Shown one piece after another: positions 22,862 to 44,305 of a stretch of 64,000 bases of DNA. The translations under genes and the position numbers were made by a program. Under the pieces are notes generated by a model. It was not told the DNA's origin, made no database searches, and saw nothing but the letters and a program-made list of their open reading frames with translations. Within the stretch, counting starts at the first letter, position 1. Every line of letters starts with the position of its first letter. The DNA lies in NCBI RefSeq assembly GCF_028618525.1, contig NZ_JAQITC010000009.1:1-64000 (forward strand). The letters are read 5' to 3'. The stretch comes from Bartonella sp. AU55XJBT (GTDB lineage Bacteria > Pseudomonadota > Alphaproteobacteria > Rhizobiales > Rhizobiaceae).

Positions 22862-24799
22862 ATGCGTTTTCCGCCTGATTTTCTTAATGAACTACGTAGC
22901 AGACTTCCAATTTCAACAGTGATTGGTCAACGGGTGGATTTTGATCCTCGAAAAAGTAAGCCTTCACGGGGAGATTTTTGGTGTTGTTGTCCATTTCATG
23001 GTGAGAAAACGCCCAGTTTTCATTGTGATGATCATAAAGGGCGTTATTATTGTTTTGGTTGTGGTGTAAGCGGAGATATTTTTACCTTCCTGTGCGAGCT
23101 TGATGGATTGCACTTTTCCGAAAGTGTCCAGCGTTTGGCTGATTTTGCAGGAATGAAACTCCCTATTTTGGATCCACAAAGTTATCAACGTCAAATAGAA
23201 AAAGCTGATCTTTATGATGTGATGAAAATTGCGACAGATTTTTTTCAATATCATTTACGCGATCAAGAAGGTGTGCAGGCACGTCGTTATCTGGAGGAAC
23301 GTGGTGTTACGCAAAAGCTTATAGAGCGTTTTCGAATTGGTTTTGCACCGGTAAGGCGTACAGCTTTGAAAGAAGCTTTAAGTGCCCGTGGTATCTCAAT
23401 AAAGCAAATGGAAGAATGTGGACTTCTCACAGCGTATGAGGAGAGGGCGGATTCTTATGATCGATTTAGAAATCGCATTATGTTTCCTATCGAAGATTTG
23501 CGCGGTCGTGTGGTGGCTTTCGGAGGGAGGGCGTTAGAGAAAGAGACACGCGCAAAATATCTTAACAGCCCTGAAACAGTGCTCTTTCATAAAGGCAATA
23601 TACTTTACAATGCGGCATCGGCGCGCAAAAATAGTCGCTTTGTTGGCGATGAAAAAATTCATTCACTTCTGGTTGTTGAGGGGTATATGGATGTCATTGC
23701 ATTGACTAAAGCCGGTTTTGAAGGAGTCGTAGCGCCCTTAGGGACAGCATTAACGGAAACGCAAATTGAGCTTTTATGGCAGATGGGCAAGGAGCCTATT
23801 TTGTGTTTTGATGGTGATGATGCTGGTTTAAAGGCTGCTTTTCGCGTTGCTGATCGGGTATTGCCTCTTTTAAAGGTTGGGGTTTGTGTCTGCTTTGTTT
23901 TGTTGCCACAAGGAAAAGATCCTGATGAAATTGTTCGTGCTGGTGGTGCGCCCCTTTTTTCTTCTTTTTTGCAAAAAGCCATTCCTTTGATTGAACTTTT
24001 ATGGTGGAGGGCCACCTATGGAAAGAATTTTGAAACGCCAGAGACATGTGCGGCGCTTGAAAAACAACTCAAACAACAAATTTTTACGATTAAGGATGAA
24101 GATGTCCGTCGTTATTATTTGCGAGATATAAAGCAACGCCTTTTTGAGTTTTTTCGTCCCTCTTTTTCAAAAAAGAAGGGAGGAGGACGCTATGAAAAGA
24201 CTTCACCCAATAGGATCTTTAAAGATCAATCCTTTTCTCTGTTAGAAAATTCTGAAATAGTACGAAATTCCTCGCAGGCTATTCCTTTACGTGAAGCTGT
24301 GATTTTACTCACTTTAGCTTACTATCCTGAGTTATGGCATGAAAATTTTGAAATTCTCTCTGAGTTAGAATTAAAAAATACACAATTGATGTATTTTCAC
24401 CAAACGATGTTGGAAATTCTCGGGAATCAGCTGCTTCATGATAAAGAAACGATGGTTGCGTTCTTAGAAAAAAGAGGGCAAAAGGCTTTATTAGAGCGTA
24501 TGAAACATCTTGTGCAGAATATTGGTATGCGTATTATCTTTGCTGGAGCTCCTATAAAAGATGCACGTGCTATATTAAAACAAGCTGTCTACTTGCATCT
24601 TCAGGAACACCACCTACATAAGAGGTTACAGGATATTGAAGAGCAACTTATAGAAAATCCTAAGAGTGAGGTTTTTGATCTGCTTCGGGAGATAAAAAGT
24701 GAGCTGGAGCAGATGCAGGCAACAGAAGCGTTAATTGAAGGGTTTGGAAGTTGGTTGGATGAAAAAATAGACGGGAACATACAAGATACGATAAAATGA
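22862..24799 (+). CDS. dnaG: DNA primase DnaG
   Basis: A 645-residue primase. The N-terminal CHC2 zinc ribbon uses C43, H46, C64 and C67 (CPFHGEKTPSF and YCFGCGVSG). The RNA-polymerase core has LNSPETVLFHKGNILYN and the Toprim motifs VVEGYMDVIAL and CFDGDDAGLKAA. The C-terminal helical part (about 470-645) is the DnaB-interaction domain. Length is normal. The stop codon overlaps a perfect dyad, TGATTCGC/GCGAATCA. dnaG followed by rpoD is the conserved macromolecular-synthesis order, although rpsU is not between or before them here. Confidence 0.96.
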   Translation: MRFPPDFLNELRSRLPISTVIGQRVDFDPRKSKPSRGDFWCCCPFHGEKTPSFHCDDHKGRYYCFGCGVSGDIFTFLCELDGLHFSESVQRLADFAGMKLPILDPQSYQRQIEKADLYDVMKIATDFFQYHLRDQEGVQARRYLEERGVTQKLIERFRIGFAPVRRTALKEALSARGISIKQMEECGLLTAYEERADSYDRFRNRIMFPIEDLRGRVVAFGGRALEKETRAKYLNSPETVLFHKGNILYNAASARKNSRFVGDEKIHSLLVVEGYMDVIALTKAGFEGVVAPLGTALTETQIELLWQMGKEPILCFDGDDAGLKAAFRVADRVLPLLKVGVCVCFVLLPQGKDPDEIVRAGGAPLFSSFLQKAIPLIELLWWRATYGKNFETPETCAALEKQLKQQIFTIKDEDVRRYYLRDIKQRLFEFFRPSFSKKKGGGRYEKTSPNRIFKDQSFSLLENSEIVRNSSQAIPLREAVILLTLAYYPELWHENFEILSELELKNTQLMYFHQTMLEILGNQLLHDKETMVAFLEKRGQKALLERMKHLVQNIGMRIIFAGAPIKDARAILKQAVYLHLQEHHLHKRLQDIEEQLIENPKSEVFDLLREIKSELEQMQATEALIEGFGSWLDEKIDGNIQDTIK

Positions 24800-40449: not shown

Positions 40450-41129
40450 ATCACGTTTGTTAATGTGCAGTATTCTCCGGTTTCCTAAATAACATATAGG
40501 GATGCGTTGGCTATTGTAAGGTAGTTTATCGTTATTGGGAATGATTATAGGGTATGATTCGAAATAAATACCTTCAGAGGTTTCATTTTTTCGTAAGCTG
40601 TTTCAATTCTTTATTGATGTTGTTGCGTAAGAGATTTTACAATATTTTTAAAGGATCATTTTCAGAAATTTTCATGAAGATAGATAAGATTTTTTCTCTA
40701 ATTTATTGTTTTTATTTAAATAATTCATCTGTTCTTTTGAACAGGTGTTTCTGCTTTTATTGTATAAGGCTTAAAGACGACGTTTTTCTTTTGTGGTGAT
40801 CGCTGCTGGGCTAGTGATTCTGCTGATTCTATTTTTTATAGGGCGAATATATACAGATTACTTATTTTTTAATGATGATCATCAGGGTTGTAAAAGAAAT
40901 TATTATAAAAATTATAATGGTTGTAGATTCTGATTGACGCCTATTGAAATAAAATTGCTTCAAATTGGGTCATTTTGAATTTTTTTTGCCTAAATTTCAC
41001 CATTTTTAAACAATTTATAATTCTTTTGTGTTTTTTTTCGTAGAAGATAATAAGAATTTCTTGTTGTTTAAAGCATTTTATTCCATAGCAAGAATATTGC
41101 ATCGGCTCTCTTAGTGGTTGATGCGAGAA
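40450..41129. other. Gap before the small RNA
   Basis: AT-rich without a convincing gene. An 81-codon frame at 40554-40799 is Phe- and Cys-rich, lacks a ribosome site and is not counted. The promoter of the small RNA at 41130 should be within the last 60 bases, but I could not define it. Confidence 0.35.
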
Positions 41130-41217
41130 GACGATCGGGGAACCTCCTCCCCCCCCCCCGCGTGGATCCCCTAGATTGTCTGGCCTGACTGAGGATTTCC
41201 TCAGTCAGGTTTTTTTG
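41130..41217 (+). ncRNA. Small RNA with CCUCCUCCC loop (cuckoo/CcsR-like)
   Basis: Two hairpins in 88 bases. The first stem pairs GACGATC-GGGGA (41130-41141) with TCCCC-TA-GATTGTC (41167-41180), with a 2-base bulge. Its 25-base loop holds an exact CCTCCTCCC at 41143-41151, running on into a tract of 11 C. The second is a strong terminator, CCTGACTGAGG (41184-41194) with CCTCAGTCAGG (41199-41209) and seven T. An anti-Shine-Dalgarno CCUCCUCCC in a hairpin loop before a terminator is the defining layout of the alphaproteobacterial cuckoo/CcsR RNAs. The upstream start is uncertain. Confidence 0.75.
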
Positions 41218-41433: not shown

Positions 41434-41814
41434 ATGGGATTTTTCTCCAGTCGTATTGCTTTCATTTTATTTATGTTTTTTATTTTTGGTGTGAGCATTT
41501 TTGCTTCTCGCAGTGTTGTGAGTCATAAGTTTTTTTCCGGCTACGTATCTTCTTCTTCTTCTCAGCAGGTTGAGGTAACAGAGGCGTTATTGCTAGAGAG
41601 ATGGGCGATGGCTTTTCCAGATGTTATTGAGCGCCTTTCTAAGATGAGTCCTCAGCAGCAAGAGCTGTTTATTGAGCAAGTACGTCGCGATGCGGTTTCA
41701 TTTGCTTCTGAAAGTGGTCAGAGTCGTGAAGAGGCCTACAAGTTTGGCGAAACTGTCGCTATGGCTCTCTTAAAAGCGATGTCTCGTCCTTCCATTGCTA
41801 ATGCTTATTTTTAA
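41434..41814 (+). CDS. Hypothetical small exported or membrane-anchored protein
   Basis: A 126-residue protein with an uncleaved signal anchor or signal peptide (about residues 8-25, FILFMFFIFGVSIFASR). A Ser-rich linker follows, then a helical domain (about 48-126) containing RWAMAFPDVIERLSKMSPQQQELFIEQVRRD. The soluble part should be periplasmic. GTAAGAGA precedes the ATG weakly. I do not recognise the family. A hairpin TTGCGATCA/TGATCGCAA at 41915-41941, about 100 bases downstream, could be its terminator although the T-run is poor. Confidence 0.65.
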   Translation: MGFFSSRIAFILFMFFIFGVSIFASRSVVSHKFFSGYVSSSSSQQVEVTEALLLERWAMAFPDVIERLSKMSPQQQELFIEQVRRDAVSFASESGQSREEAYKFGETVAMALLKAMSRPSIANAYF

Positions 41815-43651: not shown

Positions 43652-44040
43652 GTCAGTCGGCTGGGCAGCCGCGCTTGTCCAATACTGAAAAGCGGCAGGT
43701 GAGGAAAGTCCGGGCTCCATGGAAAGACGGTGCCGGGTAACACCCGGCGGGGGTGACCCTAGGGAAAGTGCCACAGAAAGTAAACCGCCTATTTTTATAG
43801 GTAAGGGTGAAAGGGTGGAGTAAGAGCCCACCGCGCATTCAGTAATGAATGTGGCAAGGTAAACCCCACCGGGAGCAAGACCAAATAGAAATGACGTGCA
43901 AGATTTAATTTGCAGCCGATTTCCGGGCGAGTCATTCGGGTAGGTTGCACGAGGCGGGTGGTAACATCCGTCCTAGATGAATGGTTGCCATGTAAAGTAC
44001 AAGCTTTACTATACAGAACCCGGCTTATAGGCCGACTGAT
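43652..44040 (+). ncRNA. rnpB: RNase P RNA, bacterial type A
   Basis: The catalytic RNA of RNase P, which trims tRNA 5' leaders. The P1 stem pairs CAGTCGG (43654) with CCGACTG (44032). The universally conserved CR-I block GAGGAAAGTCCGGGCTCC is at about 43701-43718, and AGACCAAATAG with the downstream GGGTAGGTTGCACGAGGC holds the other conserved cores. A conserved P4 half lies near ACAGAACCCGGCTTA at the 3' end. Length about 389 bases is normal. The location upstream of rsmH is common in Rhizobiales. Confidence 0.95.
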
Positions 44041-44305
44041 ATTTCATGATGATCTGCGATATTTGATAAGATCAATGACATATAGGCTTTTATGAAGTCT
44101 GTGTTTGAAATGGATACTTGAATAAAGAGCATTTAAAAAAAATTATAACATTTCTTTAAGTATAATACGTTAGGATGTGTTTTGGGATAGCTTTAACTTT
44201 TTTCGTTCATAGGGATTCATATGAAAGTTAAAGGTTGAGTTTTTCTGATCGGTTGCCATGAAAGAGCTGTTGATTTGAAATAGCATAACTTCAAGACGGA
44301 TTATT

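Follow-up and report, generated by a model that had tools for sequence, protein, structure and literature searches.

The question raised by this locus is whether a run of eleven C residues in a hairpin loop, in the window (the whole stretch of DNA analysed, the first 64,000 nt of contig NZ_JAQITC010000009.1 of Bartonella sp. AU55XJBT), belongs to a small regulatory RNA, and, if it does, whether the run is a working part of that RNA. Very probably the locus is a genuine Bartonella gene for a small regulatory RNA, and on the sequence comparisons below we put at roughly 0.6 the probability that it specifies a trans-acting sRNA of around 120 nt, peculiar to Bartonella and transcribed on its own, which would block ribosome-binding sites by means of a C-run seed of drifting length. 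Its elements are as follows.

41052..41063, + strand: inverted repeat AAGAA-T-TTCTT(G), overlapping the -35 box, a possible regulator site
41060..41088, + strand: promoter of the alphaproteobacterial sigma-70 type, with CTTGTT at 41060-41065, a 17-nt spacer and CCATAG at 41083-41088
41099..41124, + strand: SL1, the 5' hairpin, 9 pairs (predicted fold, alignment)
41130..41180, + strand: SL2, the stem-loop with the C-rich loop, 13 pairs (folds, alignment)
41143..41159, + strand: pyrimidine tract CCTCCTCCCCCCCCCCC (17 nt), the putative base-pairing seed, with C11 at 41149-41159
41160..41170, + strand: GCGTGGATCCC, the near-invariant 3' side of the loop and stem
41182..41217, + strand: intrinsic terminator, a 13-pair stem at 41182-41211 and a T run to 41216

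The C11 run forms part of CCTCCTCCC(C)n in the SL2 loop, the copy of CCTCCTCCC itself occupying 41143-41151, and the T run of the terminator covers 41210-41216, its first two T being counted in the stem. Transcription would start at about 41094-41097 and give an RNA of about 120 nt, the feature as drawn here including promoter and 5' hairpin. The preliminary description had the hairpin and the terminator right and began the RNA too late, with the promoter running from 41060 and the first hairpin from 41099. Its statement that no protein gene precedes the RNA for 680 bases holds, as no convincing gene was found in that gap (40450-41129) and it contains only an 81-aa mechanical ORF at 40554-40799. 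On the other side of the RNA, a 126-aa ORF (41434-41814) with a hydrophobic start has no Pfam match, and similar frames adjoin the RNA in many relatives; an RNase P RNA gene (class A, 321.6 bits) lies at 43653-44043.

The pattern CTTG-N18..20-YCATA stands upstream of the RNA in 54 of the 58 sequences of the window clade (57 genomes and the window) and in 12 of the 14 of a diverged clade, or 66 of all 72, and is found in three of 984 blocks of 130 nt in the window, the locus itself included. A generic E. coli-type promoter scan did not list CTTGTT-N17-CCATAG. The shape resembles the sigma-70 signature CTTAGAC-N17-CTATAT given for NfeR1 in the available part of PMC10746234. The inverted repeat at 41052-41063 is conserved as well: AAGAANTTCTTG is present upstream in 49 of the 58 window-clade sequences, and counting both strands of the window it occurs a single time. 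This repeat, AAGAATTTCTTG, overlaps the gene's -35 box and is possibly the site of a regulator.

In the predicted fold, SL2 pairs 41130-41141 with 41167-41171 and 41174-41180. Folding energies are -41.5 kcal/mol for 41130-41217 (z -6.6) and -54.7 kcal/mol for the three hairpins together, 41099-41217 (z -5.0), equalled in each case by none of 200 shuffles. This confirms the earlier claim that C11 and CCTCCTCCC (together 41143-41159) sit in the loop of a stem-loop followed by a terminator. The motif is not open throughout, since a pairing is predicted between its first CC (41143-41144) and the GG of 41164-41165, and the open loop is therefore roughly U-CCUC(n)-GCGU. The mean predicted unpaired probability of the tract is 0.79 in the window sequence, the predicted unpaired fraction is 73-96% in all 72 natural sequences, and across the window clade the predicted accessibility (0.75-0.92) changes little with tract length.

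The nearest genome, G001, shares 31% of sampled 31-mers with the window, and at this locus its copy (L002) and the one in B. elizabethae F9251 (L203) are identical across the tract and 300 flanking bases to either side. BLAST gave matches in 29 of 37 genus genomes and in 30 of 61 genomes overall, the thirtieth being 35 bases over the terminator end in another genus. A covariance model, R1, built from the window sequence together with 29 relatives, found a full-length match in every one of the 71 genus genomes searched, at 90-148 bits in 57 and at 34.8-51.6 bits in 14. In the 30-sequence alignment 98.2% of cells are paired, and changes on both sides are seen in 11 of 35 pairs (40 of 1044 cells). 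None of 500 shuffles reached the paired fraction or the both-side counts, one of 500 reached the further pair types, and slid structures were 33-46% paired; these controls lean towards the structure because the one scored was the consensus fold of the same alignment, minus two loop pairs. By helix, 96.3% of SL1 cells are paired, with both-side changes in 3 of 9 pairs; SL2 reaches 99.2%, with such changes in 2 of 13 pairs and 6 of 13 that never vary; and the terminator reaches 98.5%, with both-side changes in six pairs. The hairpins are thus kept in related Bartonella genomes, with both-side changes in all three helices, and the earlier proposal of an independent small RNA gene with a loop resembling an anti-Shine-Dalgarno (anti-SD) sequence is borne out by its presence in 71 of 71 genus genomes and by covariation. 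At the level of sequence, the genus genomes compared have conserved the gene, its hairpins and the shape of its promoter, and the marks of a trans-acting sRNA, namely promoter shape, conserved structure, an intrinsic terminator and an intergenic place, are all present.

The 14 low-scoring genomes (L067-L080; 2.2-2.9 Mb) make up the diverged clade, in which SL2, the terminator and, in 12 of 14, the promoter pattern are kept. Their loop is GACCCCCCGCAAC or similar, with C6 in 13 and C7 in one, and CCTCC is absent from it in all 14. Homology is partially supported by the 34.8-51.6-bit matches and by synteny: the ArsR-methyltransferase of the window has matches in 11 of the 14 loci, one of them a 37-residue piece. 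Between that gene and the RNA, three of these loci (L067, L070 and L074), for which the ORFs were listed, carry a gene that its sequence marks as metF-like. The place of this metF-like gene corresponds to the gap at 40450-41059 in the window. A metF gene was found in 94 of 101 family genomes and in neither G001 nor G016, and a tblastn search at E<=1 found no remnant of it in the window. In the window clade, then, metF seems to have been lost from beside an RNA gene that persisted, and this loss would account for the bare stretch noted earlier upstream of the RNA.

No convincing homologue was found outside Bartonella in searches of the family, the order and the metF loci. Order-wide, R1 matched 7 of 297 genomes at E<=0.1, two of them in the genus and the other five at 22-28 bits; one of those five, L062, was rejected as only a terminator-like repeat was seen. 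A wider model, R2, run over 151 family genomes, gave matches at E<=1 in 58, two in the genus, the best outside it scoring 33.7 bits (E 7.2e-6). Twelve of the 13 outside loci examined (L225-L237, the remaining one being L236) were dismissed as simple inverted repeats of the terminator type, with no C-rich loop in the letters displayed, and several match on both strands. At 30 metF loci outside the genus, drawn from the 94 genomes with metF and taken with about 1.4 kb downstream in 29 (24 bases in L144), neither R1 nor R2 gave a match at E<=1. Downstream of metF, C5 or more followed by G was seen in 5 of the 30, and CCCC in a hairpin loop in 2 of 29 (L134 and L143); one of the five, CCCCCCGCG in L147, lies 174 bases 3' of metF and was discarded, its predicted fold having no such loop and no terminator following.

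Within the 58 window-clade sequences the tract is 14-20 nt long and ends in a run of 5-14 C, nine or more in 53. The exact CCTCCTCCC opens it in 43 of the 58 and in none of the 14 diverged-clade sequences, while five or more C followed by GC occur in all 72; on this comparison the constant part of the loop is the C run with GC, not CCTCCTCCC. A quick tree was made from about 220 flanking bases, the tract excluded, and is short and rough; on it the total tract length changed at least 30 times, as against two changes in the adjacent distance from GCGTGG to the closing GTC, among the 43 CCTCCTC rows the C run changed 21 times or more, and the presence of CCTCCTCCC changed three times. Among 22 listed pairs with flank identity above 93% over 520 bases, 18 are distinct (of the four set aside, two were one record twice and two repeated others through such a record), and tract length differs in 11 of the 18 (93-97% flank identity), these pairs not being independent. 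The closest differing pair is B. elizabethae F9251 (C11) and B. queenslandensis BqUM (C12), 95.3% identical over 4988 bases; B. queenslandensis AUST/NH15 (C11) and BqUM (C12) are 93.0% identical over 6454 bases, and B. tribocorum C635 (C12) and L103 (C10) are mutually absent from the best 14 matches. The length variability proposed in the preliminary description stands, then, for differences between species, and in the sequences of the window clade the run can be seen to drift within bounds.

The Rfam family ar14 (RF02344), to which NfeR1 belongs, bears directly on the earlier suggestion of kinship with the cuckoo and CcsR RNAs. The locus does carry CCUCCUCCC in a hairpin loop, has three hairpins and about 120 nt, and matches the ar14 model weakly, at 18.5 bits (E 0.31); the gathering score is 58.8. 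In a family sample the model matches 60 of 61 genomes, 55 over the cut-off, and in 14 control genomes it matches one at E<=1 and none over the cut-off. In the genus it matches 41 of 71 genomes at E<=1, 27 below the cut-off and 14 over it, the latter being exactly the diverged clade, and in none of the 41 does the match fall at the place of the present RNA, positions having been compared by eye. All 14 diverged members, moreover, lack the motif in the present loop and have an over-cut-off ar14 elsewhere. In ar14/NfeR1 all three hairpins carry CCUCCUCCC; here one of three does. Cuckoo RNAs, defined by hairpins with CCUCCUCCC loops in the available part of PMC3927594, have at least two such loops in the described members. 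A DUF1127 gene, often but not always linked to cuckoo/CcsR CIN1 loci, was not found by Pfam among the four neighbours scanned. Membership was rejected on the sub-cut-off score, the separate ar14 locus in 41 genomes and the single motif loop, and descent as a diverged member of the cuckoo/ar14/CcsR family is very improbable. Those RNAs have two to four motif loops against one here, and the exact CCUCCUCCC belongs to a single sub-clade (43 of 58 window-clade and 0 of 14 diverged-clade sequences).

The ar14 loci of the genus offered what is the most striking observation of the analysis. In 8 of the 15 read (L164, L170-L172 and L177-L180) the second loop resembles TTCT(C6-C9), six have CTCCTCCC or CCTCCTCCC there, and the one from the diverged clade has CTCCTCCC or CCTCCTCCC in every one of its three hairpins. 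The C6-C9 loops imply that a second, unlinked sRNA has swapped its anti-SD loop for a variable C run, of which no prior report was found in a limited literature search.

Several explanations other than a length-drifting seed have to be weighed. That the tract belongs to a small ORF, encoding a leader or phase-variable peptide, is hardly credible: an ATG frame spans it in 37 of the 58 window-clade sequences and is absent in the other 21 and in 12 of the 14 diverged ones, and the letters 3' of the tract are near-invariant, the frame not. GCGTGGATCCC follows the tract directly in 56 of the 58 window-clade sequences though the tract lengths give all three frames, which argues for a constraint on the RNA and not on a peptide. 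It is unlikely, though less so, that the C run has grown as a homopolymer under weak selection or none, in genomes where G/C runs grow as a rule, the RNA acting through other parts. Long C runs are indeed commoner in the window clade, where the median number of C9 positions per genome (both strands, overlapping) is 14 vs 2 in the diverged clade. In the window itself, two places have C8 or more (5 overlapping matches against 0.55 expected), and CCTCCTCCC occurs twice against 0.17 expected, a count reached by one of 100 shuffles. The second CCTCCTCCC copy lies antisense inside an ORF at 22862-24799 (645 aa), presumably dnaG-like. G001 has seven places with C9 or more, five of them besides the present locus and the ar14 loop. 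Of these five, one of which is a C11, two with C9-C10 were traced in 17 genomes and kept C9 or more in 0 of 15 and 0 of 9 matching genomes, while the present run is C9 or longer in 53 of 58 sequences; its GC edge is invariant, and a C6 core occurs also in the diverged clade, which shows no such general growth of runs. One of the two, L168 (contig 15 of G001), is a C10 directly 5' of a terminator-like hairpin, with C4-C8 in 15 matching relatives, and possibly marks the end of a third RNA that bears a C run; the other sits in a 219-aa open frame.

A bolder proposal is that of a contingency-type sRNA, in which selected slippage of the C run switches or grades seed strength and targets within a population; a hypermutable seed would then grade translation control, and this sRNA together with the unlinked ar14 RNA would act as a genome-wide dial on mRNAs. 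The many length changes on the rough tree set against two in the adjacent stretch, the differences between close (non-independent) pairs and the C6-C9 run gained by the separate ar14 RNA all speak for it, as does the RepG precedent, in which pairing is graded by G-run length (PMC8295292, available part). All the length comparisons are between species, however, predicted accessibility is little altered by length, homopolymers of this size slip anyway, and assembly errors in C runs are possible. One count speaks against the length-drifting seed itself. G7 at 4-10 bases before ATG exceeds its reversed-pattern control 2.2-fold in the window clade (1149 vs 524) and 2.4-fold in the diverged C6 clade (70 vs 29), overlapping matches being counted as listed; there is no special G-run enrichment at start sites beyond the C6 clade's level, and the similar excess in both clades gives no sign of targets having changed with the tract. 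We regard such a dial as a doubtful, rather speculative prospect and take drift within bounds as the default reading of the length changes. With a C run arisen in parallel in the ar14 RNA, chance alone becomes a less likely explanation, and the matter can be put to the test.

For the length-drifting seed that we prefer, events would run as follows. A promoter of the sigma-70 type would drive an RNA of SL1, SL2 with its C-rich loop, and the terminator; the loop would pair with G-rich Shine-Dalgarno regions of mRNAs and block ribosome binding, in a mode like that of NfeR1 (ar14) and with C-on-G chemistry like that of RepG of Helicobacter. The long tract is presumably a derived form of a shorter, C6-like loop, the direction not being proven, and its length may be confined by a lower and an upper limit, with slippage that is tolerated, and not a switch, behind most of the changes. 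A genus-wide candidate regulatory RNA is thereby added for blood-borne bacteria with few understood RNAs, and a natural series from C6 to C14, in one gene across 71 genomes, is available for asking whether the length of an anti-SD-type seed is drift or dial. Were it a dial, slippage in two sRNA genes would tune many mRNAs at once.

Among known systems, ar14/NfeR1 is also an alphaproteobacterial sRNA of about 120 nt with three hairpins and CCUCCUCCC in an anti-SD loop, such loops blocking translation in NfeR1 (PMC10746234, available part); the present RNA differs in being a separate gene with one motif loop instead of three, a core of C run and GC, and a C run of variable length. The CCUCCUCCC families SmelA075 and A099 have three and four motif loops, and their family group has members in Bartonellaceae among others, the locus not being given in the available part of PMC3927594. 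The CcsR RNAs of Rhodobacter share the alphaproteobacterial setting and anti-SD-type loops; there, four RNAs are processed from the ccaF1 (DUF1127) transcript under an RpoHI/RpoHII promoter (PMC10253847, available part), whereas here a single gene is preceded by a sigma-70-type promoter of its own, and the four neighbours scanned include no DUF1127. Within the genus, the available part of PMC7717549 describes 160 sRNAs of B. bacilliformis, including three with a single CCTCCT and BbsR14, which has anti-SD loops, two TTCCTCCTAA loops in contrast to the present locus, and would appear to resemble the ar14-like RNA of the genus instead. The orthologue in B. bacilliformis Ver097 (L186/L028) has CCTCTCTCCTCCCCCCC without CCTCCT, and is therefore probably neither BbsR14 nor one of those three sRNAs, although a different strain may depart from this. 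RepG of Helicobacter pylori, with which no sequence kinship is claimed, also has a C/U-rich loop; it pairs with G-rich leaders in a manner graded by run length over the 6-16 G tested (PMC8295292, available part), and the variable homopolymer lies in the target mRNA there and in the sRNA here.
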